From: Campylobacterales bacterium
Lineage (GTDB): Bacteria; Campylobacterota; Campylobacteria; Campylobacterales; Sulfurimonadaceae
Direction of reading: 5' to 3'
DNA: 55,249 nucleotides
Assembly: GCA_026390075.1 (NCBI GenBank)
Contig: JAPLGP010000017.1
Coordinates: forward strand, 1 to 55,249
Part shown: piece after piece, positions 3,280 through 45,688 of the stretch
Layout of the letters: each line of letters starts with the position of its first letter
How positions within the stretch are numbered: position 1 is the stretch's first letter
The notes under the pieces: generated by a model
What the model was told of the DNA's origin: nothing
Databases searched by the model: none
The model's input: the letters and a program-made list of their open reading frames with translations, nothing else
Program-made: the position numbers and the translations under genes

Positions 3280-3876
3280 TTATTTTTTAGCAGTCAGTAA
3301 AAATATTCCGTAATTTTTTTCTGGCTTGTTGATGGTGTTTATGTTTTTAAACTTTATGTCTTTAAATCCACATGCCGACACAATGCGGCATAACTCTTTT
3401 TCATCAAATCCAAAGTGAAAAACATCACTATTATCAGAGTGAAAAGTTCCATCTTCACTCTCTAAATCGGCGATAGCAATAAAGCCATTTTCTTTTATAT
3501 TTTTGTAGATAGTTTTAAAAAACTTTTCCAAATCTTCGATGTGATGCAGAGTCATTGAGCTAATAATCCCATCAAACGATTGCAATAATGGCTCTTTGAT
3601 AATGTCTTGAGTAAAAGTTTCTATATGAAGTTCGGGCGTATTTTTTTCTATGAGTTTTTCAATCATACTGCGAGATACATCAACACCATAAACTTTTTTA
3701 GTTAGTTTTGCTATTTCAAAACCTAAAAGTCCTGTTCCAACACCAAAATCCATAATTTCCATCTCTTTTGTGAGCGAAATGGTTGCATGTATGGCATGTG
3801 CAATATTTTTTGCACCATCCACTCTCACGCTCTCTTCGTCCCAAGATTGTGCTTTTTCTTTAAAATGGTCTTTCAT
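3280..3876 (-). CDS. SAM-dependent class I methyltransferase
   Basis: A 198-residue Rossmann-fold methyltransferase. Motif I is EIMDFGVGTGLLGFEIAKL, motif II VYGVDVSRSMIEK, and the post-motif region is SFDGIISSMTLHHIEDLEKFF. This resembles small Methyltransf_11/25 proteins that act on small molecules, but the substrate cannot be read from the sequence. Translation starts at 3876 after an AAGGAAA ribosome site. It follows the MBL-fold hydrolase gene at 3886 with 9 bases between, so the two form a leftward operon. A CCACATGCC copy sits at 3368. Confidence 0.8.
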   Translation of the reverse strand: MKDHFKEKAQSWDEESVRVDGAKNIAHAIHATISLTKEMEIMDFGVGTGLLGFEIAKLTKKVYGVDVSRSMIEKLIEKNTPELHIETFTQDIIKEPLLQSFDGIISSMTLHHIEDLEKFFKTIYKNIKENGFIAIADLESEDGTFHSDNSDVFHFGFDEKELCRIVSACGFKDIKFKNINTINKPEKNYGIFLLTAKK

Positions 3877-4819: not shown

Positions 4820-6396
4820 GCTTTTACCTCAAATCCTAAGTCTAAATGGTTGTAACTCTTTTCATACGGTGATGCTACATTCTTCTCGAGCGCATCAAAA
4901 AGGCGTATCTCTCTTGGCGTGATTTGCGACTCTATAAGTGCTGTGCGTAAAATGCCTATATTTTCTTTTATTATCTCTTTAAATTCACTATTGTTAGAGT
5001 AGATTTGAATGTTGATTTGGTTTTTGTCATAAAGAACCAGCTTTAACTTCAACTCTCCATACTCTTTGAGTTTTAAATCAATATCGCAGTAAAATTTGTC
5101 CTCTTTATCTTTTTTGAGGTTAATACTTCCCTCTTCGAGGCTATCCCATGAGAAAGGCAAATAGAGCGAAGAGGAGTTTGAAAGATGCGAAACAAGCTGG
5201 TAATAATCGATTTGGAGTGAGAGTTTATCTATCTGTTTTAACAACTCTGCTTGATTTGGATGCGAAGATTTACTGATTTCATCACTTGCTTTGAGCAAAA
5301 TAGATTTTAAATCTCCCGATAAAATTTCTTTCACATTTTCATGGGATGCTAATTTTTCTGGATTGCTAAAAGGTGCTAATTTATGTGCCAGAGTTACTGT
5401 TTCTTTTGAAAAAACAGGGTCGGCTTTTTCGATGAGGGCTTTGAGCGGTTCTGTGATATTTTTAATATCCTGTGGCACTTTTTTCTCAATCAAAGAATCT
5501 AACGCTGTTTTTGGCGTTGTGCTATTTTGCTCGATTTCTTTGAGTGTATCCATAACTTTTGTGAGTGATTCAAGCAAATCTTTGGCATGTGGATTTGTAC
5601 TTTGTGAGAGTTGTGCACTCAAAATTTGGAGTGTATCGGTTATAGATGCGAGTTTGAAATTTTCAGGTGTTAAAAGTTTTGGCGAGATAAAATTTTCAAG
5701 CTTTGAGAGTTGTGTGGCTACACTTTTTGTCAGTGTAGAATCCGCACTACTCAGATGTTCTTGAAGTTTTGAAAGAACACTCTCAACGCCTTTTGCAAGT
5801 TGTTTGAGAGCATTTGGGTCATCTTTTGAAGCTTGTAATAAAGAGCTGTTTGAAGCCTCTTTGAGTGTTGGACTGTTAAGCAACTCTTTGATTTTTTCAC
5901 TCAACACTTTTACGGTAAAAATATCACTTTTTGCGATACTTTTATCAAGTTCGCTCAAGAGGCTTTTTAACTCAACTTGAGGATTTTTTACATCTTTTAG
6001 TTTTGACTCTAAAAAAACACCAGAGTTTTCCAGTTTTTGTTTTAATATAGGTTCGTCTAACTCTTTGATGTCCACAAGAAAGTTTTTAAGTGTTGTCTCA
6101 ATCGGTAGAGGACTTTTGTCTGATTTGAGAGTTTGCAGTAAATCTTTTATAGTGCTTGAAACATTGCCGAGGTCTTTGAGCGTAGGGTTGTTTTTTGCAA
6201 GGTCTAAAAGTGTTTTGTCAGATTGTGAGCTTTGCGTACTCTCTTTAAGAAGAGAATTCATAATGGATTTTAAATCTTTATCTTTTGAAATAGTTTCAAG
6301 TTGCGCAGGAGTAGCTTGTTGCAGAACTACGCCCAAGGCTCGATTGGTACTCGGAGCAATGATATCAAGCTGTTTGTTGAGCGATAAATTAATCAT
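4816..6396 (-). CDS. FliK-like flagellar hook-length control protein
   Basis: About 526 residues. Most of the length is a low-complexity helical stretch rich in Lys, Leu, Ser and Asp, suited to a secreted molecular ruler. The C-terminal ~110 residues (YGELKLKLVLYDKNQINIQIYSN and IIKENIGILRTALIESQI) match the Flg_hook domain of FliK that contacts FlhB. The adjoining FlhB-C protein fits this pairing. I prefer the ATG at 6396 over one at 6411; neither has a ribosome site, and TATACT at 6402-6407 suggests a leaderless transcript from 6396. FliK is poorly conserved, so the name rests on the C-terminal domain and context. Confidence 0.65.
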   Translation of the reverse strand: MINLSLNKQLDIIAPSTNRALGVVLQQATPAQLETISKDKDLKSIMNSLLKESTQSSQSDKTLLDLAKNNPTLKDLGNVSSTIKDLLQTLKSDKSPLPIETTLKNFLVDIKELDEPILKQKLENSGVFLESKLKDVKNPQVELKSLLSELDKSIAKSDIFTVKVLSEKIKELLNSPTLKEASNSSLLQASKDDPNALKQLAKGVESVLSKLQEHLSSADSTLTKSVATQLSKLENFISPKLLTPENFKLASITDTLQILSAQLSQSTNPHAKDLLESLTKVMDTLKEIEQNSTTPKTALDSLIEKKVPQDIKNITEPLKALIEKADPVFSKETVTLAHKLAPFSNPEKLASHENVKEILSGDLKSILLKASDEISKSSHPNQAELLKQIDKLSLQIDYYQLVSHLSNSSSLYLPFSWDSLEEGSINLKKDKEDKFYCDIDLKLKEYGELKLKLVLYDKNQINIQIYSNNSEFKEIIKENIGILRTALIESQITPREIRLFDALEKNVASPYEKSYNHLDLGFEVKA

Positions 6397-6475
6397 GCAA
6401 AAGTATAGCAAAATAAAGAAGAGGGAATGAGTCTTGCTCCTAAAATTTTATATGAGAGATGTGAAAGGAGAAATT

Positions 6476-7435
6476 ATGAAAATAGAGAACTTTGCATTGG
6501 ATTTACACGCTGAATCATTCAAAAGCAGTAGTGTGAGTATTGTCAGTTTTGAAAGAGAACTTGATTCTCAAAATGTGAAACGATTGGAAGAAGTGGAGGC
6601 TTTAAATTCTCAAGTGGAGTTTTGTAAACGACTCGAATTTGAGTTGGTGCAACAGCTTTTATCTATGTTAAATTCAAAAACTTGCAGGTTTAAAGAGTTG
6701 AGCACAGAGCAGTTTAAAGCAAACCAAAGTCGTGAAGTGACGATTATGAAAGAGTATAAAGAGTCGCAAAGCCTTGATGTGAGCATGAGCGGATTTATTC
6801 AAATCGCAAATAAAAAAATAGAGTTAAATATTGATATCTCAATGTCACACTCTTTTGTGAGTTCAAATCAGATTTTACATCAGCAATTTTATGACCCTTT
6901 GGTACTCAATTTTAATGGCAAATTACCAGACCTAGATACACAAAATTTTTCTTTTGACATTGATTGTGATGGTGCATGTGAGCAAATATCGATGCTTAAA
7001 AATGGAAGTGGTTTTTTAGCTCTTGATAAAAATGAAAATAACAGAATTGATGATGGAAGTGAACTCTTCGGTGCATTAAACGGTAACGCATTTGCAGACC
7101 TCAAACGCTATGACAGTGACAAAAATGGCTGGATAGATGAGAGCGACCCGATTTTAGATAAACTGAAAATTTGGATAAAAAACAAAGATGAAAACCGCTT
7201 GGTGGCTTTAGGTGAACTTGGAATTGGTGCGATATATCTAGGTAAAAGTGAAGGTCAATTTGATATAAAAAGCGATACGAATGAAACACTTGGGCGCATC
7301 AGAGATACAGGATTTTTTCTTAAAGAAGATGGCACGAGCGGGATAATGTCGCAAATCGATTTTGCACGACAAAACGGAGAGGTTAATAAAATTTCAGACA
7401 TATCGCTGTTGAATGAAGTTTTAAAAATAGTATAG
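6476..7435 (+). CDS. Protein with paired EF-hand-like calcium loops
   Basis: The 319-residue protein starts at ATG 6476 with AAAGGAG upstream; a longer frame to 6434 lacks a ribosome site. The N-terminal third is helical with no signal peptide. The middle has two acidic loops: DKNENNRIDDGSELFG and, about 18 residues later, DSDKNGWIDESD, both like EF-hand or dockerin-type calcium loops. Proteins with the DxNxNxxIDDGSELFG signature recur in Campylobacterota and are often tied to the cell surface, but I know of no assigned function. It stands alone, next to the flagellar genes but on the other strand, and ends before a strong hairpin at 7469. Confidence 0.65.
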   Translation: MKIENFALDLHAESFKSSSVSIVSFERELDSQNVKRLEEVEALNSQVEFCKRLEFELVQQLLSMLNSKTCRFKELSTEQFKANQSREVTIMKEYKESQSLDVSMSGFIQIANKKIELNIDISMSHSFVSSNQILHQQFYDPLVLNFNGKLPDLDTQNFSFDIDCDGACEQISMLKNGSGFLALDKNENNRIDDGSELFGALNGNAFADLKRYDSDKNGWIDESDPILDKLKIWIKNKDENRLVALGELGIGAIYLGKSEGQFDIKSDTNETLGRIRDTGFFLKEDGTSGIMSQIDFARQNGEVNKISDISLLNEVLKIV

Positions 7436-7468
7436 ATTGATAACCTTGGTACCATAAGGGCATTTTCT

Positions 7469-7514
7469 CACTTCGCTTTGGCATGTGGAAATTCCCACAT
7501 GCCAAAGCGAAGTG
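7469..7514. terminator. Strong 20-bp hairpin containing an inverted GGCATGTGG pair
   Basis: Bases 7469-7488 and 7495-7514 are perfect reverse complements (CACTTCGCTTTGG then the repeat core), with loop AAATTC. One arm ends in GGCATGTGG (7480-7488), the other begins with CCACATGCC (7495-7503). It follows the EF-hand-like gene stop by 33 bases and can terminate transcription from either side. The same hairpin type, with the same AAAGCGAAG flank, recurs at 10469, and both are followed by recO 3' sequence. Confidence 0.75.
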
Positions 7515-7544
7515 AAAAATGTTTTTAAAAGAGTAAATAAATCT

Positions 7545-7620
7545 TTACAATCCTTCAAGCAAAATGTACCAAAGTCTATCGACTTCTAAAGCCTTTTTAT
7601 CGATACTGAGTGTGTGAACA
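7545..7620 (-). pseudogene. Decayed duplicate of the recO 3' end
   Basis: Read leftward, the end of this stretch encodes EVDRLWYILLEGL and a stop, nearly identical to the RecO C-terminus at 10553 (EVERLWYVLLEGL). Upstream residues SIDKKAL match SINKKAL of recO. Compared with the intact gene it lacks an internal 45-base block and two bases near 7612, so it is out of frame and has no start. The non-coding flank TTTTAAAAGAGTAAA to the left also matches. It marks one edge of the island inserted between here and the real recO. Confidence 0.85.
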
Positions 7621-7663
7621 TTTTTTTTATTTTGAACATTTTTTTGATTTAAATAGGATAATA

Positions 7664-7921
7664 TTAAATTCCTATTGGTCTGAAAAATTCGCAAATATCA
7701 ACTTTTAGTAGTTTTGAGATTTTATGTAAATGTTCTATATTGAAGTGCTTTTTATTCAGTGTTAGTTCTGCTTGTGAGACTAAACCTGAAGAATTATAGC
7801 CCATGGCTAAAGTGAGTTCAAGTTGGCTTACACCCTTCTCTTTTCTTATTTTCGCAACATTTTTTCCGATAATGCCATAAAACTCAGCTATTTCTTCATT
7901 GTTAAAATCTATTGCTTCCAA
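7664..7921 (-). CDS. XRE-family helix-turn-helix regulator
   Basis: An 85-residue protein with a Cro/CI-type HTH: GKNVAKIRKEKGVSQLELTLAMGYNSSGLVSQAEL, followed by LHKISKLLKVDICEFF. It has no other domain, so it is probably a repressor or activator of its divergently transcribed neighbours (PEGA lipoprotein, 8410 gene, DUF4105 gene) acting in the 110-base shared gap 7922-8031. It lies inside the segment bounded by duplicated recO ends and has no counterpart nearby that would mark it as a toxin-antitoxin partner. Confidence 0.8.
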   Translation of the reverse strand: MEAIDFNNEEIAEFYGIIGKNVAKIRKEKGVSQLELTLAMGYNSSGLVSQAELTLNKKHFNIEHLHKISKLLKVDICEFFRPIGI

Positions 7922-8031
7922 AATAATTTATAACTCACTATGTTTAAGTTTAATCACAGTTTAGAAGATTATAATTTTTACTTCAAGTAACTATAGTTAC
8001 CTGTTAAATTTTTTCTGAAGGGGTTTTTTTT

Positions 8032-8406
8032 ATGATAGAACGAATTTTATTAGGTTTGAGCGTATCAAGTGTATTATTGTTTACAGGATGTGCGACGATT
8101 GCTGGTGGCGGTGGGAAGCAAGCAGTTTCTTTTTCTTCAGAGCCGGCTGGTGCATCTGTAAGTGTTGGTGGTGCTCAAATGTGTACTACACCATGTCAAG
8201 TAACGCTTGATAGAAAGCAAGACCTTGTAATTAAAGTAGAAAAAGAAGGTTATCAGTCGATAACAAGACCTCTTGAAACTAAAATGAATACATGGGTTTT
8301 AGGTAATGTCATTATTGGTGGTTTGCCAGGAACAACGACCGACGCACTCAATGGTGCAACAGTTGAATATAGCCCAAACAATTATCACTTTGAACTAAAA
8401 AAGTAA
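8032..8406 (+). CDS. PEGA-domain lipoprotein
   Basis: A 124-residue lipoprotein. The signal peptide ends in lipobox LFTGC (lipidated Cys19), followed by a Gly-rich linker and one PEGA repeat: VSFSSEPAGASVSVGGAQMCTTPCQVTL. The rest (GYQSITRPLETKMNTWVLGNVIIGGLPGTTTDALNGA) resembles small outer-membrane PEGA lipoproteins annotated near surface-assembly genes. AAGGGG lies 8 bases ahead of the ATG. It is the first gene of the rightward island operon with the small exported protein and the DUF4105 protein. Molecular role unknown. Confidence 0.75.
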   Translation: MIERILLGLSVSSVLLFTGCATIAGGGGKQAVSFSSEPAGASVSVGGAQMCTTPCQVTLDRKQDLVIKVEKEGYQSITRPLETKMNTWVLGNVIIGGLPGTTTDALNGATVEYSPNNYHFELKK

Positions 8407-8409
8407 AAT

Positions 8410-8721
8410 TTGTTAATTTTTAGACTTCTCTGTCTATTCTTTACGGTCGCATTAAGTGCGACCACTCCTTGCAAAAGTATTACAATCAAAAAAGAAAGTT
8501 TAAACGAAAGACAAAGCGATGTGATGAGCTTTGTCCTGTTAAATAATGAAAGGTTACGAAATGAACTTGAAAATGGTAATTCAAAATTACTTGATAGTCT
8601 TATCTTTGAAATTGATGGTATAAATTACGAAACAACAAAGCAAAAAATAAAAGAGCTAGCACAACAAAAACAAAGCTCTTATGACTTTGCAAAAGCTATT
8701 ATCATGGAATTTTATAAGTGA
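8410..8721 (+). CDS. Small exported protein of unknown function
   Basis: A 103-residue protein with a TTG start 3 bases after the lipoprotein stop. A hydrophobic N-terminus (LIFRLLCLFFTVALSA) predicts a signal peptide with cleavage near residue 17, leaving a polar helical domain with a single cysteine. I do not recognise a family. It is sandwiched between the lipoprotein and the DUF4105 gene, with a 4-base overlap to the latter, so it probably works with them at the cell envelope. Confidence 0.6.
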   Translation: MLIFRLLCLFFTVALSATTPCKSITIKKESLNERQSDVMSFVLLNNERLRNELENGNSKLLDSLIFEIDGINYETTKQKIKELAQQKQSSYDFAKAIIMEFYK

Positions 8722-10448
8722 TACGCATATTATTTTTTATAGTCATGATAACAATACTCGTCTTTGCAGACGATATTTCAGTTACTACTGTAGCTGAAAA
8801 TATGGAATGGAAAAATCTACTTCATATTGGTGAAGATGGAAAAAGTGAAATTTCTGATAAAGATTTTTTTCTTTCATCAACACAAAATTTTTCAGCAAAA
8901 AATGAGTTAGAAAAATCGCTTGAAATTCTTAAGAGCAATAAAAAATGTGAAACTATATGTAAATTTCCTGCTAGATTTTCATATATAAGCAAGCAGTTTG
9001 ATTTAAATATAACATTAGAACATTGTACAGATTTACAAAAATTTCTTAAAAGTACAAGAGGTGAATCTGTAAGTTTAATATTTGCTTCGTCGTTTCTAGG
9101 CTCTCCTATTTCATACTTTGGTCATACTTTTTTGAGAGTGAATAAGCTAAATAATCCATATTTCTCACAGACATTAGGCTACGCTGCAGAAGTTGATTCG
9201 ACGATGAAAGTTCCTGAATTAGTATCTAAAGGCTTAAGTGGAAGACTTATTGGTAAATATATAATTGCACCATATTTTAAATTATACGAAAACTATAGTA
9301 CTGTCGAACAAAGAACACTTGTCGAATACAAATTAAACTTGACACAAGAAGAGATTGACAAAATGATTTTGCATGCCTATGAAGTTTTTGGTACTACTAC
9401 GGAGTATGGTTTCTTCCGTCAAAACTGTGCTTATCAGATGTTATGGCTTTTGGAAGTTGCAAGACCTATTTTGTCACTTAGAAATGATTACAAATTTTAT
9501 GCTATCCCCGCAGAGACAGTTCAGCAGATAAAAGATATAGGAATTACAACAGATGTTGTTACAAAATTATCATTGATAGACAGTGCATACTTGACATATC
9601 AAACACTTAGTGAGGATGAAAAAGAGTTTTTTGGCTATCTTCAAAATAGTAGTAATAAATCTGCAATGCTTGAAACTTCTGTGTTTGAGAAAAGTACAAA
9701 AAATAAATTTGCTTATTTGTTAAATGCTAACTACGATATTTTGTTTAAAAAATTCAAAACTAGTAAAGAAGACTATTTTGAAGTAAAAAAAATAAAATAT
9801 GAATCTTTAGATAAACAAAACTTCGGAGATACAACTAGAAATTCACAATCAATGAAAATAAGTCTTGGACGGACATTCTTGGATAATCAAAAATTAGACA
9901 CTTTAGAGTTTAGACCTATTTTATTTGATAGATTTGATACAAAAGATAGTGCTGTTGGAGAGGGAACGCTTGAATTTTTGAAACTTGGAGTGCAAAAACA
10001 GGGTACAAAAAATCGTTTAGAGTATTTAAATATTGTAGAAGTTGAATCACTTACGAGTAGATTCGATTTTTATAAACCATATTCTTGGAGACTTTATGCT
10101 GGAGCAAATCGTAACTTTAAAGATGAAAATCTTACACCAGCTTTGGAATTTGGTCTTGGCGAGGCATATACAGTGAATGAAGTTTTTGGATATTTATTGG
10201 CTCAAACTGGGGCATATCCGACGAATTCCAACATTGGTTTACAGGCACTTGGAGGTCTAAGTTTCTGGCATGAGGGCATACATTTTGGAGTTGATTTTAA
10301 GCGAAATCTTCTTTTTTTAAATAACAATAAGCCAGTTGATATGACAAAAATATATGTATTGTCTCCAATTACAAAAGCAACAAATATTGAAATATGGGCT
10401 GATTGGAACGCAAAAAAATATGGTGTTAAATTAGGTTTGAGGTTTTAA
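8718..10448 (+). CDS. DUF4105 envelope protein with outer-membrane-like C-terminus
   Basis: The 576-residue protein starts at GTG 8718, inside the stop region of the preceding gene. A signal peptide (MIRILFFIVMITILVFA) is followed by a DUF4105 (Lnb N-terminal-like) domain with SPISYFGHTFLRVNK near residue 135 and FFRQNCAYQMLWLLEVARP near residue 235. The conserved His and Cys resemble a papain/NlpC-like catalytic pair, so a peptidase or amidase role is possible. The C-terminal ~200 residues alternate polar and hydrophobic residues and end in phenylalanine (KLGLRF), as outer-membrane beta-barrels do. Related Campylobacterota proteins are uncharacterised. Confidence 0.7.
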   Translation: MIRILFFIVMITILVFADDISVTTVAENMEWKNLLHIGEDGKSEISDKDFFLSSTQNFSAKNELEKSLEILKSNKKCETICKFPARFSYISKQFDLNITLEHCTDLQKFLKSTRGESVSLIFASSFLGSPISYFGHTFLRVNKLNNPYFSQTLGYAAEVDSTMKVPELVSKGLSGRLIGKYIIAPYFKLYENYSTVEQRTLVEYKLNLTQEEIDKMILHAYEVFGTTTEYGFFRQNCAYQMLWLLEVARPILSLRNDYKFYAIPAETVQQIKDIGITTDVVTKLSLIDSAYLTYQTLSEDEKEFFGYLQNSSNKSAMLETSVFEKSTKNKFAYLLNANYDILFKKFKTSKEDYFEVKKIKYESLDKQNFGDTTRNSQSMKISLGRTFLDNQKLDTLEFRPILFDRFDTKDSAVGEGTLEFLKLGVQKQGTKNRLEYLNIVEVESLTSRFDFYKPYSWRLYAGANRNFKDENLTPALEFGLGEAYTVNEVFGYLLAQTGAYPTNSNIGLQALGGLSFWHEGIHFGVDFKRNLLFLNNNKPVDMTKIYVLSPITKATNIEIWADWNAKKYGVKLGLRF

Positions 10449-10468
10449 AAAGATGATTATCTATGTTC

Positions 10469-10497
10469 TTGGCATGTGGAAACTTTCCACATGCCAA
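10469..10497. terminator. Hairpin of inverted GGCATGTGG pair between convergent genes
   Basis: TTGGCATGTGGAAA (10469-10482) pairs with TTTCCACATGCCAA (10484-10497); in practice the loop opens to about 5-7 bases. It lies 20 bases after the DUF4105 gene stop and 55 bases beyond the recO stop on the other strand, so it can terminate both. Its right flank AAAGCGAAGCGACAAATG matches the flank of the 7469 hairpin. Confidence 0.7.
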
Positions 10498-10552
10498 AGC
10501 GAAGCGACAAATGCCTTTGGGATGCTAAGATTTTAAAAGAGTAAACAAATTT

Positions 10553-11173
10553 TTACAATCCTTCAAGCAAAACATACCAAAGTCTCTCGACTTCTTTATC
10601 ACTTAAAAAGAGGCTTGATTTATTGGTAAACAATTCAAGTAAAGCTTTTTTGTTGATGCTGAGTGTATGTGAACATGCTTTGTGTGTCGGTAGGTAGGCG
10701 CGTATGAGTGAAATCTCTTCCTCTTTAATGTCTTGGGAACATAAAAAGCAATTTAGCTCAGAGTGAAGTCTTCCCTCATGCGCTAAAAGTTTTACATAAG
10801 ACTCTACTGCCACTCTTTTTGGATTTTGTTTGTTCCATTCTCTTGAAGCATTATCGATAAGTTCAAAGTAAAAATCACCCAACTCTTCGGCATCTTTGAG
10901 GTGTTTATGAAAGAGTGTTAAAAAATCTTGCCAAAGTCTGAGAAGTTTGTAATCATTTATCCACTTAAATCCTATATGTATTACATCTTTTAATCGTGAG
11001 ATATTGGATTTGCCCGATGGCTCTTTTTCGTAGTCTATTTTAAAGCCTATATTTATAGTTCCATGTCTTGCTCCATAAAACCTATAAAGAGTATCTAAGT
11101 TACCCTTTGATATGATAGTAACTATTAAATCTTCATCTTTAACTTTGTTAAGATTTATGATGTAGCCCTGCAT
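10553..11173 (-). CDS. recO: DNA recombination mediator RecO
   Basis: A 206-residue protein with the short epsilonproteobacterial RecO layout: an N-terminal OB-fold-like region (MQGYIINLNKVKDEDLIVTIIS...LYRFYGARHG) followed by a helical domain and a CFLC pair near residue 142. RecO loads RecA onto SSB-coated single-stranded DNA with RecR, which matters for repair and for integrating transforming DNA. The assignment rests on overall pattern, as RecO diverges strongly in this phylum. AGGAAAG precedes the ATG. The last ~40 codons are duplicated in degraded form at 7545-7620. Confidence 0.8.
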   Translation of the reverse strand: MQGYIINLNKVKDEDLIVTIISKGNLDTLYRFYGARHGTINIGFKIDYEKEPSGKSNISRLKDVIHIGFKWINDYKLLRLWQDFLTLFHKHLKDAEELGDFYFELIDNASREWNKQNPKRVAVESYVKLLAHEGRLHSELNCFLCSQDIKEEEISLIRAYLPTHKACSHTLSINKKALLELFTNKSSLFLSDKEVERLWYVLLEGL

Positions 11174-11372
11174 TTTTTGTTCTTTCCTAGTTTCTTATAT
11201 ACACATTATTAAAATTTATTCAAAAAATATTCCTATAATTATACTTTTTTAAACCTTTAAAGTGTACAATAAAGCACTTTTTTCTAAATAGACTAAGTTT
11301 CTTTAAAAAGAGATTAAATTTAAAAAGAATTATCATTAATTTGCATAATTTACTAATAATGTAGGAGTTAAA

Positions 11373-14300
11373 ATGGTTGAACATCATGATTTATTGAGAT
11401 CGTTTAAAGATAACTGTGGCTTTGGTCTCATCGCAAACATTAAAAACAAAGCATCTCATAAAGTTTTAGATGATGCAGTTACTGCATTAGAGAGAATGAT
11501 GCACCGTGGTGCAGTTGCAGCGGATGGAAAAACAGGCGATGGAAGTGGTTTGTTACTTTCTATGCCAGAAGAGTTTATTCGCAATGAAGCATCTAATGGT
11601 GGAGTTGAATTGCCTAAGCAATTTGCAGTTGCATCTGTATTTACAAAAGATAGAGCGCACCTAGATGTGATAGAAAAAATTTGTGCGAATAACGACTTAA
11701 AAATAGTGTTTCGTCGTGATGTTCCAGTGGATACAAATGCCTTAGGTGACCAAGCTTTGGCTTCATTACCAAATATTGTTCAACTCATTATTACTCCAAA
11801 CTCTATTATGGCTACCAATAGATTTGATGCACTTTTGTATCTTTCTCGTAAAGAGTGTGAGCATGAACTTATTGCGGATAGAAACTTTTATATAGCATCA
11901 ATGAGCTCAAAAGTTCTTTCCTACAAGGGTCTTATTATGCCTACGCATATCAAAGAATTTTACAAAGACCTTCAAAATGAGAACTTTAAAATCTCTTTTT
12001 CACTTTTTCACCAAAGATTTTCAACAAATACACTTCCAGAATGGAGACTTGCACAACCATTTCGTGCAGTTGCTCACAATGGAGAGATTAACTCTGTTGA
12101 GGGAAATCGTATAAATGTTCAAATAAAATCAGAATCTATAAAAAGTGAAGTTTTTACAGATGAAGAGATAAAAAGGATTTTACCAATCTTACAACTCAAC
12201 GCATCTGATAGTGCGAGTGCAGATAACTTTTTTGAATTTTTAATCGTAAATGGTATGGATTTCTTTAAAGCTACTCGTGCGGTTATCCCATCAGCATGGC
12301 AAAATGCTCCTCACATGGATCCAGAACTTCGTGCATTTTATGAGTATCATTCTACTGTTTTTGAAGCATGGGATGGTCCAGCAGCATTTTCTGTAACAGA
12401 TGGTCGTTATATCGGTTGTGTTCTCGATAGAAACGGTCTTCGTCCTTCAAAATACATTATTACTAAAGATGACAATCTTCTTATTGCCAGTGAATATGGC
12501 GTTGTTGATATTGCAGAAGAGAATATCAAAGAGAGAGGTCGTCTTCAGTCTGGCGAAATGTTAGGACTTGATTTAAAGTTTGGAAAAATTCTCAAAAATG
12601 AACAAATAAATGATTATTTAAAAAGTTCAAACCCTTATATGAAGTGGTTAAATGAGCATATGGTTTATCTTCAAGAGCATGTGGAAGAGCAATATGTAGT
12701 GAAATGTGATTTTAATAGAGAAAATTTTGTAAAAAGACAGAGATTTTTCAATATCACTCAAGAGGTTGTTGAACAAGTTATTGAGCCTATGATAATTGAA
12801 GGTAAAGAAGCTGTTGGTTCTATGGGCGATGATACTCCTTTGGCAGCCTTTTCAAATAATCAAAGAGCTTTTACGGATTATTTTAAACAAAAATTTGCGC
12901 AAGTAACAAACCCACCGATTGATCCAATCCGTGAAAAAGTTGTAATGAGTTTAAATACAGGTTTTGGTGAAGTACATAATATTTTAAATGAAATTCCATC
13001 CCATGCACATCGTTTGAAATCGATTTCACCTATTATTACGAATGAAAAGCTTGAAGTATTAAAATCATTTGGAGATAAAAAGTCACCTCGTTATCAGGCC
13101 TTTTATCACAATACAACTTTTTCAACGGCATACAGTGGAAACCTTAAAGATGCACTCGATGCTTTGGTAACAAAAGTAATTCATTCTGTAAAAAATGATG
13201 GTACAAGAGTTGTAATATTGGATGATTATGAATTTAGTGCAAAAAATAAAATTATTCCTATGGCAATGGTTATTGGTCGTTTAAATTTTGCTCTTTTAAA
13301 AGCTAAAATCCGTCATCTTACTTCTCTAATTGCTATTACTGGAGAAGTGATTGATTCGCATAGTGCGGCAGTGCTTATCGGATATGGCGCAAGTGCTATC
13401 TATCCAAACTTGCTTTTTGCAACTACTATTGATATGTTAGAAAAATCAAAAGTTATCAAAGTTGATTGTCATGAAGCACTTAAATCAGTTCACAGTGCTT
13501 TAAATAGTGGAATTTTAAAAATTATGTCTAAAATGGGTATTGCTACTCTTGCATCGTACCGTAATGCGGGATTATTTGATGTTTTGGGTCTGAGTAAAAC
13601 AGTTGTAAAAGAGTGTTTTGAGACTTCGCATTCTGCTCTTGGTGGACTTGATTATGAAGATATAGACGAGAGAATTACAAGATACCACAAAGAAGCGTTT
13701 AACGAAGATGGTTTTAATAAAATTTTTCCACTCAATATTGGTGGATATTATAAGTTTTATAATGGTCAGGAACACCATGATTTTGGTCCTGAAGTTATTC
13801 ATGCTATTCATGCTGTTGCAGCAAGTGGGGATAAAAAAGATTACGATAAATTAAAAGATTTAGTCAACAAAAGAGGTCTTAAATTTATTCGTGATTTCTT
13901 TGAACTTAAATCGGATAGAAAACCTATAAATATCTCTGAAGTTGAACCAAAAGAGCTCATTTTTAAACGATTTGCTTCGGCTGCGATGAGCCTTGGATCA
14001 ATAAGTCCTGAAGCACATGAAACAATTGCAATGGCAATGAACAAAATAGGTGCGCAATCAAACTCTGGCGAAGGTGGAGAAGATGTTGCACGATTTGGAA
14101 CTGAGCGAAATTCAAAAATCAAACAAGTTGCTTCTGGGCGATTTGGTGTAACTCCAGCGTATCTTAGAAGTGCAGAAGAGATTCAGATTAAAGTTGCTCA
14201 GGGTGCAAAACCAGGGGAAGGCGGTCAGCTTTCAGGTCACAAAGTATCGCCTCTTATCGCAAAACTTCGTCATACAGTTCCAGGGGTTACACTTATTTCA

Positions 14301-15812
14301 CCTCCACCGCATCATGATATTTACTCAATCGAGGATTTGGCACAGCTCATTTTCGATATGAAACAAGTAAATCCACATGCCAGAGTTGCTGTAAAACTTG
14401 TTTCAACGATTGGTGTTGGAACAATCGCTGCGGGTGTTGCAAAAGCGTATGCAGATAAAATTATCATCTCTGGTGGTGATGGCGGTACGGGCGCTGCTCC
14501 ACTTACTTCTATCAAATTTGCGGGTAATCCATGGGAACTTGGTCTGAGTGAAGCGCATAATGCACTCAAAGCAAATAACCTCAGAGGACTTGTTGAAGTT
14601 CAAGCAGATGGTGGACTTAAATCTGGTCTTGATGTTGTGAAAGCTGCACTTTTAGGTGCAGAGAGTTATGCCTTTGGTACAGGTGTTTTAACAATCGTTG
14701 GTTGTAAAATGCTTAGAATTTGCCATGTAAATAAGTGTTCTGTAGGAATTGCTACACAAAATGAAAAACTTCGTCAAGAATTTTTCAAAGGGCATGTGGA
14801 TCAGGTTATAAATTACTTCACGCTTTTAGCTGAAGATGTGCGTTCTCTTATGGCTGAACTAGGGTTTGCAACTATGGAGGAGATGATAGGTCGTGTAGAT
14901 TTACTCAAAGTTGTAGATGATAAGTTTGCACAAAAATTTGATTTTTCTGCTGTACTCCATCAAGAGAGCGGTGTAAATACACATCAACAAAGAACAAATC
15001 CACCTTTTGATAATAACGAATTTGAAAAAGATGTTTTAAAGGAAGCTATGAGCGCTATAAAACATCCTGAATATCCAATAAGAATCAATAGAGAAATAGC
15101 AAATATTCATAGAAGTTTTGGCGCTTTAGTAAGTGGTGAAATAGCACACTTTTATGGCGACAAAGGACTCAAAGCAGATACTATTAGAATTACTTTAAAT
15201 GGTATAGCAGGTCAGGCACTCGGAGCATTTTTAATCCCTGGAGTATCTATTTATCTCAATGGTGTCGCAAATGATTACATTGGTAAAGGTATGCACGGTG
15301 GAAAAATTATCATCACTTCTAAAAATGAGGGTGAAAAATTTAGTGCCGGAGGTAACACTTGTCTTTATGGTGCAACAGGCGGTAAACTCTATATTTCAGG
15401 AAGTGTTGGCGAAAGATTTGCTGTTCGTAACTCTGGTGCATTAGCGATAGTTGAGGGTTCTGGAGATAATGCCTGTGAATATATGACGGGTGGTATCGTT
15501 GTCATCATTGGTAAAACAGGTATCAACTTTGGTGCTGGTATGACGGGTGGAGTGAGCTTTGTTTATGATGCAGATCATAGTTTTGTAGAAAATGTGAATC
15601 GTGAACTTGTTGAAGCTGTTCGTATAGATACAGATGAGGGTGATGATGCAAGACATCTTCTCAAAAGATTATTAAAAGATTATGTAGTGGAAACACAAAG
15701 TATTAAAGCAAAAGAGTTACTGGATAACTTTAGAGTTGAAGTGAGAAACTTTTGGCTTATTCGTCCTAAAAACTTAACTAAACTACCTCTTAATCTTGAG
15801 AATGGAGACTAA
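11373..15812 (+). CDS. gltB: Glutamate synthase (NADPH) large subunit
   Basis: A full-length (1479 residues) ferredoxin/NADPH-type glutamate synthase alpha chain. After a 14-residue propeptide comes the nucleophile C15 (NCGFGLIAN) of the class II glutamine amidotransferase domain, then the central domain, the FMN-binding synthase barrel (SGGDGGTGAAPLTSIKFAG), the 3Fe-4S cysteines (CKMLRICHVNKCSVGIAT) and the GXGXG C-terminal domain (GGKIIITSKNEG, GGNTCLYGATGGK). It makes two glutamates from glutamine and 2-oxoglutarate. TAGGAG precedes the ATG. The 199-base gap shared with recO holds AT-rich promoter sequence. Repeat copies at 14373 and 14791 encode PHA and GHVD. Confidence 0.97.
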   Translation: MVEHHDLLRSFKDNCGFGLIANIKNKASHKVLDDAVTALERMMHRGAVAADGKTGDGSGLLLSMPEEFIRNEASNGGVELPKQFAVASVFTKDRAHLDVIEKICANNDLKIVFRRDVPVDTNALGDQALASLPNIVQLIITPNSIMATNRFDALLYLSRKECEHELIADRNFYIASMSSKVLSYKGLIMPTHIKEFYKDLQNENFKISFSLFHQRFSTNTLPEWRLAQPFRAVAHNGEINSVEGNRINVQIKSESIKSEVFTDEEIKRILPILQLNASDSASADNFFEFLIVNGMDFFKATRAVIPSAWQNAPHMDPELRAFYEYHSTVFEAWDGPAAFSVTDGRYIGCVLDRNGLRPSKYIITKDDNLLIASEYGVVDIAEENIKERGRLQSGEMLGLDLKFGKILKNEQINDYLKSSNPYMKWLNEHMVYLQEHVEEQYVVKCDFNRENFVKRQRFFNITQEVVEQVIEPMIIEGKEAVGSMGDDTPLAAFSNNQRAFTDYFKQKFAQVTNPPIDPIREKVVMSLNTGFGEVHNILNEIPSHAHRLKSISPIITNEKLEVLKSFGDKKSPRYQAFYHNTTFSTAYSGNLKDALDALVTKVIHSVKNDGTRVVILDDYEFSAKNKIIPMAMVIGRLNFALLKAKIRHLTSLIAITGEVIDSHSAAVLIGYGASAIYPNLLFATTIDMLEKSKVIKVDCHEALKSVHSALNSGILKIMSKMGIATLASYRNAGLFDVLGLSKTVVKECFETSHSALGGLDYEDIDERITRYHKEAFNEDGFNKIFPLNIGGYYKFYNGQEHHDFGPEVIHAIHAVAASGDKKDYDKLKDLVNKRGLKFIRDFFELKSDRKPINISEVEPKELIFKRFASAAMSLGSISPEAHETIAMAMNKIGAQSNSGEGGEDVARFGTERNSKIKQVASGRFGVTPAYLRSAEEIQIKVAQGAKPGEGGQLSGHKVSPLIAKLRHTVPGVTLISPPPHHDIYSIEDLAQLIFDMKQVNPHARVAVKLVSTIGVGTIAAGVAKAYADKIIISGGDGGTGAAPLTSIKFAGNPWELGLSEAHNALKANNLRGLVEVQADGGLKSGLDVVKAALLGAESYAFGTGVLTIVGCKMLRICHVNKCSVGIATQNEKLRQEFFKGHVDQVINYFTLLAEDVRSLMAELGFATMEEMIGRVDLLKVVDDKFAQKFDFSAVLHQESGVNTHQQRTNPPFDNNEFEKDVLKEAMSAIKHPEYPIRINREIANIHRSFGALVSGEIAHFYGDKGLKADTIRITLNGIAGQALGAFLIPGVSIYLNGVANDYIGKGMHGGKIIITSKNEGEKFSAGGNTCLYGATGGKLYISGSVGERFAVRNSGALAIVEGSGDNACEYMTGGIVVIIGKTGINFGAGMTGGVSFVYDADHSFVENVNRELVEAVRIDTDEGDDARHLLKRLLKDYVVETQSIKAKELLDNFRVEVRNFWLIRPKNLTKLPLNLENGD

Positions 15813-17207: not shown

Positions 17208-17245
17208 ATTTCCACATGCCAAGTAATTCTGTGGCATGTGGAAAT
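17208..17245 (+). terminator. gltBD terminator: 14-bp stem of an inverted repeat-family pair
   Basis: ATTTCCACATGCCA (17208-17221) and TGGCATGTGGAAAT (17232-17245) are perfect reverse complements around a 10-base loop, starting 9 bases after the gltD stop. A T-rich stretch (TTTTTTC near 17254) follows. Both arms extend the 9-mer core by matching flanks, as in uptake-sequence terminators of Neisseria and Haemophilus. Confidence 0.8.
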
Positions 17246-19225: not shown

Positions 19226-19579
19226 TTGCAAGCAAGTGAGTTAAAGTACTTTAAAGAAATTTTAGAGGGTCGTAAGGCACAGATAATTAAAAATATCGTT
19301 GGTGTGAATGATGAATTAGACCAGTTGAATTCATTAGAATTAAATGATGAGGGTGATTATGCATCTGTCAATAATAATTCTATGGTTGAAAGTGCAATAG
19401 TGCATCAGCAAGAACAAGAGTTGAGAGAGATTAATGTTACTCTTGGAAAAATATCAAATGGTGATTATGGTATATGTGAGATGTGTGAAGATCATATAAG
19501 TTTTCAGAGATTAAAAGTAAAGCCACATGCCATTTATTGTATTGATTGTAGAGAAATAGTAGAAAAATCTAGAAAATAG
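19226..19579 (+). CDS. DksA/TraR-family zinc-finger protein
   Basis: The 117-residue protein has a coiled-coil N-terminal half, an acidic DEGDYA tip (the DxxDxA motif DksA inserts into the RNA polymerase secondary channel) and a four-cysteine zinc finger CEMCEDHISF...YCIDC. Small DksA-like proteins modulate transcription together with ppGpp. It starts at TTG 19226, 6 bases after AAGGA. It is followed 9 bases later by the membrane protein gene. A CCACATGCC copy at 19523 codes for PHA within the zinc finger. Confidence 0.85.
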   Translation: MQASELKYFKEILEGRKAQIIKNIVGVNDELDQLNSLELNDEGDYASVNNNSMVESAIVHQQEQELREINVTLGKISNGDYGICEMCEDHISFQRLKVKPHAIYCIDCREIVEKSRK

Positions 19580-21577: not shown

Positions 21578-22719
21578 TGTTAAATATTTCTAAGTCTATT
21601 AAAGCATTAGACGATCTCGATATATCTGATAATCTCTTTCATTATGATTACAATACTAAACATCTTTTATCCCTTTTAGCAAAAAATACAGATGAAGAAG
21701 ATGTTCTCTATTTAAGTTCTTATCGCTCTTTTGAAGGTGAGGTTTTTGAAAACTATATTTATGAAAAACTTTTAAGATATGCTGAGCAAAGCGATGAAAT
21801 AGAGAAGTTTATTTTAAAAGGTTTTCATCAAAATAAAGAAAAATCAAATCCAAATACACTCTCAATAAGTGAAAAGCAACAGATAGTTTATAGAACAAAA
21901 AGTAGAGAAATTAGCGAATTTGATGCTATGTTTATTACCAAAGATAAAGAGCTCTATTTTGTTGAGATGACACTTGTAAAATCTGTTTTAAAACTCAAAA
22001 AAAGACTTAGAAAGAAAAAAGCACTTTTAGAAATTATATTTCCGCAGTATGAGATAAAAGCACTTATAATTTTAAATGAGGGTGCAACTGGAACAAAACA
22101 GTTGCCTGATTACTGCAAAGTATGGCTTACTAAAGAGTTTTCTGCGAAAAATGTTTTAGAACATATTAAATATCCACATGCCAAGAAGTTGGAAATTAAA
22201 GAAAAAATCACCTCTGAGAAAATGTTAGAAGCGCATTCTCTTAAACTTCATCCATTTCGATATTACAATACAATGACTTGGATAACAAAAACATTAAGAA
22301 GTCATAAAAAACATATTCTTGATATGACTTTTTTAATGACACAAAGCACTCAAAGATACCATGATTTGTATAATAAATTTTATATAGGTTATATGAGTGT
22401 AGCTGAGGCAAAAGAGTTACTGAGTTTAGATGAGAATAAATATGATGCCAATCAAAGAGTTGTAGTAGCCATCGAGAAAAAACATTCTGATGAGATAGTT
22501 TTAACTTACTATATACAAACAGCTCGTAAAAAGCTTTATTTATACTCTTTTGAGAATGAAGTGATGAGTAAAGAGACAAAAGACCCATATGGTATAACTG
22601 TTACAGAAGTTTTTCATATAAACAAAGCTATGGATGGGAGTTATGAGTTAAATATGGCAAATATAAAAGTGATTAAAAAGCTTCTAAAAGATAAGTTTGA
22701 AGAGAAAAAGCCAAGCTAA
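21577..22719 (+). CDS. Unknown protein with possible PD-(D/E)XK-like nuclease core
   Basis: A 380-residue cytoplasmic protein with no named family I can recognise. Residues around 110-140 (SREISEFDAMFITKDKELYFVEMTLVKSVLKLKKRLRKKKALL) have the order of a restriction-endonuclease-like core: Glu, then an Asp on one strand, then a Glu on the next strand followed by a basic helix. However, the usual ExK is ExT here, so it may be inactive or a different fold. It is coupled to dus by TAATG and is convergent with the FliO-like gene, only 2 bases apart. A CCACATGCC copy lies at 22174. Confidence 0.6.
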   Translation: MLNISKSIKALDDLDISDNLFHYDYNTKHLLSLLAKNTDEEDVLYLSSYRSFEGEVFENYIYEKLLRYAEQSDEIEKFILKGFHQNKEKSNPNTLSISEKQQIVYRTKSREISEFDAMFITKDKELYFVEMTLVKSVLKLKKRLRKKKALLEIIFPQYEIKALIILNEGATGTKQLPDYCKVWLTKEFSAKNVLEHIKYPHAKKLEIKEKITSEKMLEAHSLKLHPFRYYNTMTWITKTLRSHKKHILDMTFLMTQSTQRYHDLYNKFYIGYMSVAEAKELLSLDENKYDANQRVVVAIEKKHSDEIVLTYYIQTARKKLYLYSFENEVMSKETKDPYGITVTEVFHINKAMDGSYELNMANIKVIKKLLKDKFEEKKPS

Positions 22720-24495: not shown

Positions 24496-25227
24496 ATGAT
24501 TGAGTTGATTTTACTTGGACTTGTTGTCGGTTTGCTCTCTGGCTTTTTTGGTATTGGGGGCGGGACTATTTTAGTTCCTCTTTTACTTTTACTAGGGTTT
24601 GAAACGAAGATAGCAATAGGTATTTCTGTTGTGCAGATGATGTTTAGTTCTTTTTATGGCAGTTATTTAAATAACAAAAAAGGCACTCTTGATGTTCCTA
24701 TGGTAGCTACTATAGGCGTTGGTGGCTTTATGGGCGCATTTTTAAGTGGTATCATTACTTCAAATCTCAGTGATAAAAGTTTAGAACTTATATTTTTAAG
24801 TTTTGCAATTTTCGCACTTGTGAGACTTTTTTTAAAACCAAAAGAGCATAAAGAACAAAAGCATGTCAATAGGCTCATACTCCTTGTAATCGGGATTTTT
24901 CTTGGAGCAATAGGCATGGCGATAGGAGTAGGTGGAAGTATGATACTTGTTCCTATCTTGGTTGGATTTTTGCATGTACCACTTAAAAAAGCAGTTTCCG
25001 CAGGGCTCTTTTTTGTAGTGTTTTCATCCATCGCAGGTTTTATTTCACATGCCACAGTAGGGCATGTGGATTTTAAAAGTGGTATCATCATAGGACTTGC
25101 TTCACTCTTTGGTGTCTATTTGGGCATACATTTAAAAGACAGAGTCGATGTTCATTTACAAAGAAGATTGATAGTCACTTTTTATGTAATTGTAGTAACA
25201 TATTTAACACAAAGAATATTTTTTTAA
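24496..25227 (+). CDS. TSUP/TauE-SafE family permease
   Basis: A 243-residue inner-membrane protein of the DUF81 (TauE/SafE, sulfite exporter) family. It has the two-fold repeat, each half with the Gly-rich motif: GFFGIGGGTILVPLLLLLGF near residue 17 and GMAIGVGGSMILVPILVGFL near 140. Members move sulfite, sulfoacetate, taurine-derived or other organosulfur anions; the substrate here is unknown. In a presumed sulfur oxidiser, sulfite export would make sense but is only inference. It is 12 bases upstream of uvrA, so the two may be co-transcribed. TCACATGCC (one mismatch) and GGCATGTGG lie close together at 25045 and 25061. Confidence 0.85.
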   Translation: MIELILLGLVVGLLSGFFGIGGGTILVPLLLLLGFETKIAIGISVVQMMFSSFYGSYLNNKKGTLDVPMVATIGVGGFMGAFLSGIITSNLSDKSLELIFLSFAIFALVRLFLKPKEHKEQKHVNRLILLVIGIFLGAIGMAIGVGGSMILVPILVGFLHVPLKKAVSAGLFFVVFSSIAGFISHATVGHVDFKSGIIIGLASLFGVYLGIHLKDRVDVHLQRRLIVTFYVIVVTYLTQRIFF

Positions 25228-28075: not shown

Positions 28076-28178
28076 TTCCACATGCCGAAGAATATTCTAA
28101 AATGAAACGGTATGAGACGGCGAAAATAAAGTGAAAGGCTTCACTTTATTTTAGACTATGATTTCACGGCATGTGGAA
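28076..28178. terminator. Nested hairpins between uvrA and the convergent ferritin-like gene
   Basis: The outer arms TTCCACATGCCG (28076-28087) and CGGCATGTGGAA (28167-28178) are a perfect 12-bp inverted pair of the repeat family about 80 bases apart. Inside sits an independent 13-bp perfect stem (28123-28135 with 28140-28152, loop AGGC) rich in A on one side and T on the other, which alone makes a bidirectional intrinsic terminator. No open frame is seen here. Confidence 0.75.
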
Positions 28179-28199: not shown

Positions 28200-29009
28200 C
28201 TATAACAACCTCTTCATCAACTCTATATGATAGCTCTCTTGGTAGTTTATAAAGTCAAAAAACTTCGATAACTCTTCATCTTTTATAGCCGAACTCAGCT
28301 CTTTGCACATCGCTTTTGCAGCTTCTTCTTCGGCTATTCCATCGTGTACGAATTTCTCTAAATCTTTGATGACATAGGTAAGTTCATGTAGCTCTCTTGG
28401 GAGTGCTAAAATGCCTACTTTTGCCATCATGTTTCCAAAAGATTTTAAGTGAAAGTGTGACTCGTCTATAAGGTCTTGAAATACATTAAATTGGATGACT
28501 TTGTCCGTTCTTGCCTGCATAAAAGCATACACTAAAATAAGCTCATACTCTTTGTATGACTCTTCAAACAAGAACATTGTCAGGGCATCGATTTGCTCTG
28601 GAGCTAAGTTTGTATCGAGCCATTTTCTTTGCATATTAAAAGCTGTTACTTCTTTGTTGTTTTGACTGTTCTTTAAAATCTGTGCAAGATACTCCAAAAG
28701 GTAGGTATCATCTGTTTTCATTCTGTTTGCGAGTATATCATCTCCATAAATGCTTTGCGTTTCTATAACTGTTTCTACCAAATCTTCTATTACTTCAAAA
28801 ACAGACTCTTTTTTGTAAAGCAACATTTTTCTATCATAGTTGTAGTTATTTCCACATGCCAAGGTATCTGTTGCAATCCACTTCATATGACGAAATGCAA
28901 TTTGAGAAAAGTCATACAGCCTTGATTTTATCTCCTCATCATTGATGGCAAATGACGCAAATAATATACTTAACCATAACTCATGTTTTGCTTGATATAT
29001 TTTATTCAT
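28200..29009 (-). CDS. Ferritin-like helical protein next to an IscU homologue
   Basis: About 269 residues, nearly all helical. Candidate di-iron ligands are in the order of ferritin-like four-helix bundles: IAFRHMKWIATDTL near residue 38, FQDLIDESHFHLKSFG near 190, and FINYQESYHIELMKRLL at the C-terminus (ExxH-type pairs). A catalytic or iron-storage role is therefore possible, but I cannot name a family. I choose ATG 29009, which follows GAAGAG; a frame to 29036 adds nine residues. The start overlaps the end of the IscU-like gene by 8 bases, so the products are probably made together and may share iron chemistry. Confidence 0.55.
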   Translation of the reverse strand: MNKIYQAKHELWLSILFASFAINDEEIKSRLYDFSQIAFRHMKWIATDTLACGNNYNYDRKMLLYKKESVFEVIEDLVETVIETQSIYGDDILANRMKTDDTYLLEYLAQILKNSQNNKEVTAFNMQRKWLDTNLAPEQIDALTMFLFEESYKEYELILVYAFMQARTDKVIQFNVFQDLIDESHFHLKSFGNMMAKVGILALPRELHELTYVIKDLEKFVHDGIAEEEAAKAMCKELSSAIKDEELSKFFDFINYQESYHIELMKRLL

Positions 29010-31601: not shown

Positions 31602-32251
31602 TACACATTTCCACATGCCAGTTTCAATATGACAAAAAGAGTGTTTTAGATATAGATTCTTTGCATATAAAAGAGGGCGAACACATCTTTTTACATGGAA
31701 AAAGCGGAAGTGCAAAAAGTACATTTTTAAATCTTTTGTGCGGTATTTTAGAACCAACACACGGAGATATTGAGGTGTTTGGAACAAAACTCTCCTCTTT
31801 GAGTCTCTCACAAAAAGATAAATTTAGAGCAGATAACTTCGGTGTAATCTTTCAGCAATTCAATCTTTTGCCCTATTTGAGTGTTGAAGAAAATATTCTC
31901 TTGGCATGTGGATTTACAAAATCAAAAAAAATCTCAAAAGAAGAGATAAAGATTTTGCTCGATGCACTCGAACTCTCAGTTGATTGTAAAACAGCTGCGA
32001 TGAAGCTGAGTGTTGGGCAACAACAGCGGGTTGCGGTTGCAAGGGCATTGATAAACAGACCAAAAATTATTTTAGCAGATGAGCCAACTTCGGCACTCGA
32101 CAGCGATGCTAAAGAACGCTTTATGAAACTTCTTTTTACTCAAGCCTCGGCATGTGGAGCAACGCTTGTTTTTGTAAGTCATGACAAATCACTTGCCTCT
32201 CATTTTGACACGGTGTATGATTTTTCCACACTCAATAGGGCGTTTGTATGA
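31598..32251 (+). CDS. ABC transporter ATPase of MacB/LolD type with altered P-loop
   Basis: The 217-residue ATP-binding subunit is of the family that drives FtsX-like permeases. Unusually, the Walker A is HGKSGSAKSTFLN (the Gly before the catalytic Lys is Ala) and the signature is LSVGQQQRVAVARAL instead of LSGGQ. Walker B KIILADEPTSALD and the H-loop VFVSHDKS are normal. These changes may weaken ATP binding but Lys and Ser are kept. Three repeat-family copies (31611, 31903, 32149) fall in this short gene, encoding STCQ and two ACG tripeptides. It overlaps the sulfatase and permease genes by 4 bases each. Confidence 0.85.
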   Translation: MIHISTCQFQYDKKSVLDIDSLHIKEGEHIFLHGKSGSAKSTFLNLLCGILEPTHGDIEVFGTKLSSLSLSQKDKFRADNFGVIFQQFNLLPYLSVEENILLACGFTKSKKISKEEIKILLDALELSVDCKTAAMKLSVGQQQRVAVARALINRPKIILADEPTSALDSDAKERFMKLLFTQASACGATLVFVSHDKSLASHFDTVYDFSTLNRAFV

Positions 32252-33471
32252 TTTTTAACTTAACTTATAAAAGTATTTTAAATCGTAAAACCGCATTTTT
32301 CCTTTCTGTGTTTTCTATTGCTATCAGTGTTGTTTTGCTTTTAGGGATACAAAGAGTTGCAAAAAGTTCAGAGAAACATTTTTTAAACACTCTAAATGAA
32401 ACGGACATGATAGTCGGCGCTTCAAACGGCTCGATTGAAATTTTGCTCAACCTTGTTTTTCATATAGGCGATGGGCTTGGCGAAATGCAATATAGTTCGT
32501 ATGAAGAGATAGCAACGATGGATGAAGTTGCGTGGAGTGTGCCTCTGAGTTTGGGTGATAGTTTTAGAGGTTTCGAGGTAATGGCGACAAATGAAGATTT
32601 TTTTAAACGCTACAAATACGCCTCAGGAAAACTTTTAGAGTTTCAAGAGGGCGGTAATTTTGGCGGTTTTTATGATGTGATAGTTGGGTTTAATGTGCAC
32701 AAAAAACTCGATTTAAAGCTCTCTGACAAAGTACATCTTTCCCATGCAGATGAACATCACGAACATACAAACAGAGAATTTAGCGTGAGCGGAATCTTAA
32801 AGCCGAGCAACACCCCAAATGATGATTTGGTTTTTATTCAGCTCAAATCCGATGAAGCCATTCACTTGGAGTGGCAAAGCGGACATTTTGTGGATATGCA
32901 CATAGAGAGTGAGAAATTATCCCAGATGGATATTAAACTCAAACATGTAAGCGGAATGTTACTAGGGCTTAAAAATCCTTTACAAATTTTGGAGCTAGAA
33001 AATAAAATTAACCATTATAAAGGTGAAAATCTCAAAGCTGTTATTCCAGCAAAAGCCTTGAGTAAACTTTTCAAATTGATGCAAAGTTTTCAAAATGTTT
33101 TGTTCTTTATCTCAGTTGCAGTTTTTATTGTTGCACTTTTTACAATGCTTACTTCTATGTACGCAACCCTGATTGAGAGAAGAAGAGAGATAGCGATACT
33201 CAGAAGTTTAGGTGCAAGTGCAAAGGTACTCTTTGCACTTTTTGCCATTGAGTCGTTTCTTATCGTGGCATGTGGAATTGTTCTTGGAGTTTTCATATTG
33301 ACGCTTTTGATAGCTCTCATTCCATCCACACTTTCCATAAGCCACATGCCAGATATATATGAAATAGCTATGCTTTTGGTTATGGTGGCGATTTCACTTC
33401 TTGCAAGTCTGATACCCGCTTTAAGCTCCTACAAACAGAGTCTTCAAGATGGACTTATCGTCAAAATATGA
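32248..33471 (+). CDS. FtsX/MacB-like ABC permease with histidine-rich periplasmic loop
   Basis: A 407-residue four-helix permease: one helix near residue 20, a large periplasmic domain, then three helices (about 275-400) in the FtsX pattern, including ATLIERRREIAILRSLGAS. The periplasmic domain contains HLSHADEHHEHTN (near residue 170), a His/Asp/Glu-rich loop typical of metal-binding segments in zinc-related ABC systems. This, plus the DUF3299 neighbour, recalls the Vibrio ZrgBCDE cluster, so a zinc-linked role is plausible but unproven. It overlaps both neighbours by 4 bases. Confidence 0.8.
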   Translation: MIFNLTYKSILNRKTAFFLSVFSIAISVVLLLGIQRVAKSSEKHFLNTLNETDMIVGASNGSIEILLNLVFHIGDGLGEMQYSSYEEIATMDEVAWSVPLSLGDSFRGFEVMATNEDFFKRYKYASGKLLEFQEGGNFGGFYDVIVGFNVHKKLDLKLSDKVHLSHADEHHEHTNREFSVSGILKPSNTPNDDLVFIQLKSDEAIHLEWQSGHFVDMHIESEKLSQMDIKLKHVSGMLLGLKNPLQILELENKINHYKGENLKAVIPAKALSKLFKLMQSFQNVLFFISVAVFIVALFTMLTSMYATLIERRREIAILRSLGASAKVLFALFAIESFLIVACGIVLGVFILTLLIALIPSTLSISHMPDIYEIAMLLVMVAISLLASLIPALSSYKQSLQDGLIVKI

Positions 33472-42878: not shown

Positions 42879-43068
42879 ATGCAACCCTATTTTATAAAAT
42901 CATTTGAGTTTTATTTTAGCATGAAAAGACTTAAGTGCTTTAGAGAAACGCTCTGAAGGAAGAATTACTCACATTGAAGTGATATGTGTTAGAAATATTG
43001 TAAAATTAGAACACACTAAAAAAGCTTAGAAGTTTGGCATGTGGAGAATTGGAAAAAAATTCAGTTGT

Positions 43069-45631: not shown

Positions 45632-45688
45632 TTTACTTTTCCACATGCCAACAATAAAATCTAAACTCATTAAAAAAGGAAAAATAAA

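Follow-up and report, generated by a model that had tools for sequence, protein, structure and literature searches.

An abundant nine-letter word resembling DNA uptake sequences in a Campylobacterales genome, and a recO relic that may record an import

Only two families, the Neisseriaceae and the Pasteurellaceae, have known uptake words according to a 2025 paper (PMC12616744). The USS of the Pasteurellaceae (Hin AAGTGCGGT, Apl ACAAGCGGT) has a 9-bp core, is present in more than 1,000 copies on both strands, is A/T-rich on its 3' side, forms mirror pairs at gene ends and shows a reading-frame bias (PMC2346458). The DUS dialects of the Neisseriaceae occur in ~900-3,200 copies, form inverted pairs and are spread clade by clade (PMC3630211). 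The word described here, GGCATGTGG, is like the USS and the DUS in these respects but is unrelated to either as a word. It differs from the USS also in its host, a member of the Campylobacterota, in having no clear bias toward gene termini and in that its part in uptake is putative. It differs from the DUS in having no convincing dialects, with only weak leads in two other genomes, G055 and G068. We found no report of an uptake word in the Campylobacterota (Sulfurimonas, Epsilonproteobacteria, Campylobacter) in the open-licence literature.

Two other described systems resemble parts of this case. REP/RAYT elements, like pairs of GGCATGTGG, are intergenic palindromes in many copies, but GGCATGTGG is not tied to Y1_Tnp genes and is found mostly as single copies within genes. 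Homology-facilitated illegitimate recombination in competent bacteria, which combines a homologous joint with an unrelated one, would leave a partial duplicate (PMC3240628); unlike the known examples, the recO case presented below is read from one old scar. We think it quite likely that the hairpins beside recO are pairs of a DNA-uptake-sequence-like word, and we give about even odds to the recO relic being a trace of DNA imported in this way.

The window, i.e. the whole stretch of DNA that was analysed (55,249 nt), contains 42 copies of GGCATGTGG where 0.22 would be expected. On the forward strand they lie at 246-254, 1995-2003, 5584-5592, 7480-7488 (half of hairpin 1), 10471-10479 (half of hairpin 2), 14791-14799, 17233-17241, 25061-25069, 28168-28176, 31903-31911, 32149-32157, 33267-33275, 35512-35520, 38477-38485, 38838-38846, 39741-39749, 41661-41669, 43036-43044, 45896-45904, 49572-49580, 51085-51093, 51537-51545, 52603-52611 and 53265-53273. 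On the reverse strand they lie at 261-269, 3368-3376, 7495-7503 (the other half of hairpin 1), 10487-10495 (the other half of hairpin 2), 14373-14381, 17212-17220, 19523-19531, 22174-22182, 28078-28086, 28852-28860, 31611-31619, 33342-33350, 38696-38704, 40812-40820, 45641-45649, 52860-52868, 54893-54901 and 54938-54946.

The whole genome carries 1,427 copies of this 9-letter word, 724 on one strand and 703 on the other, whereas the reversed word, used as a control, occurs once on each. Within 440 kb, GGCATGTGG was the most over-represented 9-mer (275 copies, where a third-order Markov model predicts 1.24), and its single-letter variants were far rarer than perfect copies. The consensus over the same 440 kb is YTYGGCATGTGGAAWT, i.e. 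YTY-GGCATGTGG-AAWT, which is extended and asymmetric with an A/T-rich 3' side. A second over-represented word in this genome, GTCATTGCGA (41 copies in 440 kb), is likely a separate repeat family.

Placement was analysed in 700 kb, where 298 copies of GGCATGTGG fell within ORFs and 129 outside, a 4.5-fold intergenic enrichment. The genic copies were biased in reading frame, 121 of the 298 being read as CCA CAT GCC. Uptake words are 9-12 bp long, occur hundreds to thousands of times, well beyond chance, lie on both strands alike, are dispersed in and between genes, and show a bias of orientation or frame within genes; GGCATGTGG was found to have each of these properties. Its abundance, placement, pairing and frame bias are the marks of the uptake words of the Pasteurellaceae and Neisseriaceae (PMC2346458, PMC3630211, PMC2734928).

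Mirror pairs of GGCATGTGG account for 51 palindromes genome-wide, each of the form GGCATGTGG...CCACATGCC. Convergent gaps held 23 of 47 mirror pairs, compared to 40 of 295 (p 6e-9). Two of the palindromes lie at the recO locus. Hairpin 1 (7464-7519) is a mirror pair whose arms reach 28 nt (CACTTCGCTTTGGCATGTGGAAA...), and hairpin 2 (10469-10497) is a mirror pair with a shortened left arm and no T run. Both fold more stably than shuffled sequence, hairpin 1 very strongly so (z -10.5). No Rfam match was found within 6400-11400. The sequence-only reading of this stretch had taken the two hairpins for a duplicated pair at recO, a view that gives way to their membership in the set of 51 palindromes of a genome-wide word. 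The placement of the pairs agrees with that of the inverted uptake-word pairs that act as terminators at gene ends; the terminator role here is putative, and pairs at gene ends would double as stem-loops where convergent transcripts end.

The number of palindromes, their preference for gene ends and their stable RNA stem would also suit a mobile palindrome of the REP/MITE kind, or a terminator specific to the lineage, of which the single words would be remains. We consider this very improbable. Only about 100 of the 1,427 words are in mirror pairs, the copies share nothing beyond the 9-mer and a handful of adjoining letters, and the single genic copies show the reading-frame bias. Y1_Tnp, the REP transposase, is absent from the word-rich genomes G072 and G075, and G045 and G077 likewise have words and pairs without a Y1_Tnp match. 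The missing T run of hairpin 2 also counts against this reading.

A word of this kind could instead act inside the cell, either as a signal for recombination or repair in the manner of Chi or by binding some other protein, and be kept by that function. Like Chi, GGCATGTGG is non-palindromic, abundant and present inside genes, and its conservation in the relative G106, described below, would follow from any strong function. However, the orientation of GGCATGTGG in 700 kb was unrelated to GC skew (rho -0.08, p 0.54). The words also pair as stem-loops at convergent gene ends and are enriched between genes, neither of which, to our knowledge, is expected of Chi, and their conservation is gone in a lineage with a split comEC. 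We regard a Chi-like role as quite improbable.

The word was counted in 135 species of the genus. Eleven species, including our own, have at least 411 copies, the ten others carrying 411-1,393; eight species have 50 to 226 copies and the remainder 27 or fewer. In a tree of recO and gltB, our genome is followed by L111 (genome G106) and then by L112 (G133) together with L113 (G069). These nearest kin have 1,393, 226 and 179 words, respectively. The tree requires three or more changes to account for the word-rich rows, so that a gain followed by losses and repeated gain both fit. Candidate word dialects in G062, G068, G055 and G031 gave weak signals that were unconvincing as uptake words. In G055 (L284, L285, L307-L309, L171), TACATGTA with flanks TTC/GAA was counted 50 times on both strands in 100 kb, compared to 2.6 expected; it shares CATGT with GGCATGTGG and is possibly a dialect or an operator. 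In G068 (L278, L279, L293-L299), AGCATCTA is mildly over-represented and lies nearly always in genes.

ComEC is the membrane channel for incoming DNA, and a ComEC family match was present in 15 of 15 genomes searched. The gene is intact in our genome (G000). In G106 it reaches a contig end, so that half of it is visible. In G069 it is split into two halves ~8.1 kb apart (contig C15, L359:1217-1762 and 9853-10605, the N- and C-terminal halves), and in G133, a 99% complete genome, no match to comEC was found. A pilin-like gene and further unrelated genes lie in the ~8.1 kb between the halves in G069.

Conservation of the word was compared with that of 9-mers flanking it and of 9-mers of the same composition. 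Where our genome aligns with G106, 18 of 19 words were identical, as against 27 of 86 flanking 9-mers (31%) and 35 of 149 of the same composition. Between our genome and G069, only 5 of 31 words were identical, as against 33 of 176 flanking 9-mers and 28 of 242 of the same composition; relative to L112, the figure was 1 of 8 words. On these 19 sites for G106 and 31 for G069, the word is preserved in the pair formed by our genome and G106, and preservation has stopped in the branch with damaged comEC, where words are lost at the neutral rate. Uptake bias predicts both outcomes, the word being kept in the first case and eroded in the second. Since L112 and L113 form a sister pair, word erosion and comEC damage may date from a single past event, and their association could be coincidental. 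Uptake words are expected where the host has uptake genes and to decay when competence is lost, and this is the pattern seen here, but five word-poor genomes with 50-165 copies (G095, G035, G041, G036 and G080) retain a full-length comEC, and thus a low word count needs no comEC loss.

Conservation of the word and the state of comEC tie it to DNA uptake, which is itself putative. It is likely that GGCATGTGG represents a third, independently evolved system of self-DNA uptake words, in which a Sulfurimonas-type clade of the Campylobacterota takes up kin DNA by this word and loss of comEC erodes the words in sister species. The competence machinery of the lineage would prefer word-bearing DNA, and the words would spread and persist through transformation with DNA of kin.

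Read from the left, the recO locus shows an EF-hand-like protein gene (6476-7435, forward strand) and hairpin 1. A relic of the recO 3' end with its 3' leader follows on the reverse strand (7523-7622; 45-nt deletion, 2-nt gap), and then a small gene of the XRE helix-turn-helix type (7664-7921, reverse strand) that belongs to a multi-copy family, with six matches in its own genome and as many as nine in other genomes. Three genes on the forward strand come next: a PEGA-domain lipoprotein gene (8032-8406; PF08308, E 7e-9), a gene for a small exported protein, p103 (8410-8721), and a DUF4105/Lnb_N protein gene (8718-10448; PF13387, E 7.9e-36). Hairpin 2 and intact recO (10553-11173, reverse strand; NF010483, E 8e-82) complete the locus. 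The four genes that the sequence-only reading had placed in the ~2.9 kb (XRE, lipoprotein, small exported and DUF4105) are thus all confirmed. The PEGA-p103-Lnb trio recurs in G055, away from recO and beside unrelated genes, with ~44% identity in Lnb. Carriage of the inserted genes by a phage or plasmid was considered and rejected (one weak phage match for XRE, only distant plasmid matches for Lnb). The inserted stretch (7504-10470) contains no GGCATGTGG; about 1.7 copies would be expected at mean spacing, so the absence is not significant.

Positions 7523-7587 match 10531-10595 at 92% over 65 nt in direct orientation with a spacing of 3008. When 7400-7720 was compared with the whole genome, the recO end was its best non-self match (E 1.2e-27) and reciprocally so, which means that the resemblance proposed for 7545-7620 is not due to chance. 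When both recO ends were aligned with those of three relatives, the relic showed the very 45-nt deletion and 2-nt gap that had been proposed for it. Both copies end in GGATTGTAA; this stop context, the common 3' leader and the hairpin are absent in L111, L112 and L113. The alignment therefore indicates that the two recO ends are each other's nearest kin and that the duplication is local, fairly young and younger than the split from these three relatives. Each of the two copies has substitutions: at one codon the relic retains GAT (Asp), as in the relatives, and intact recO reads GAG, and at another place TATGTT is retained by intact recO and replaced by TACATT in the relic. On the left, homology between the copies stops inside the left arm of hairpin 2. 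The duplicated stretch thus has its left edge inside a palindrome, which may have been the joint of the import.

The surroundings of recO were compared among relatives. The adjacency of recO and gltB is kept in most of 54 named relative loci, but what lies 3' of recO varies among 57 loci, with many different genes intervening; the commonest 3' neighbour is a methyltransferase followed by carboxynorspermidine decarboxylase. The EF-hand gene adjoins fliK in most relatives examined and recO in none, and an empty site, with the EF-hand gene directly beside recO, was looked for in the 54 relative loci and found in none. Within the sampling, the gene order of the window is therefore specific to its own species. 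The absence of this order from every relative and the variability 3' of recO support an insertion by which recO came to have its end in duplicate. On the 3' side of recO in L112 (10618-10720) lies a different hairpin (AAGTGAAGC...GCTTCACTT) and then one word. In another species (G003, L055:3989-4219), a broken partial recO copy adjoins intact recO, so such duplicates are not unique to our genome.

Several histories of the relic were weighed. The sequence-only reading offered target duplication by a mobile element, for which there is no support because no integrase, transposase or recombinase is present among the ORFs of 7620-10450. The same absence counts against a site-specific element that integrated at the recO end, displaced its 3' end and later lost its integrase. 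Insertion at a gene 3' end, a duplicated end in direct orientation and an XRE gene in the gap would suit such an element, but many unrelated genes occupy the recO 3' site in relatives and the trio also occurs elsewhere, at a place where recO is missing; we find this history unlikely. The kinship of the two recO copies would suit a history in which the recO end was duplicated in tandem and other genes were later inserted between the copies. That course requires two events, and the left edge of homology inside a palindrome is directly explained by one crossover near a word pair, which makes it a doubtful alternative as well.

The other suggested origin, in which homologous recombination brought in a recO end from another strain, gives the best fit, although the donor and recipient copies are indistinguishable. 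Incoming DNA carrying XRE-PEGA-p103-Lnb and a recO end would have formed a homologous joint in recO on one side. The other, left joint would have been unrelated, as in homology-facilitated illegitimate recombination, with no recombinase needed. The resident sequence, hairpin 1 together with its recO end, would have been left behind to decay as a relic. In Neisseria, loss of DUS-flanked blocks has been reported (PMC2734928). That the relic is the scar of such a one-sided homologous import seems to us about evenly balanced, and we are less sure of it than of the word.

By itself the recO scar is ordinary. If the reading of the word is true, it would be a third case of uptake words, in another phylum, and self-tagging of DNA would have evolved repeatedly, also outside host-bound bacteria. 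Closely related species that differ in whether comEC works would allow a direct comparison on the question of whether the words are both built up and maintained by uptake bias.
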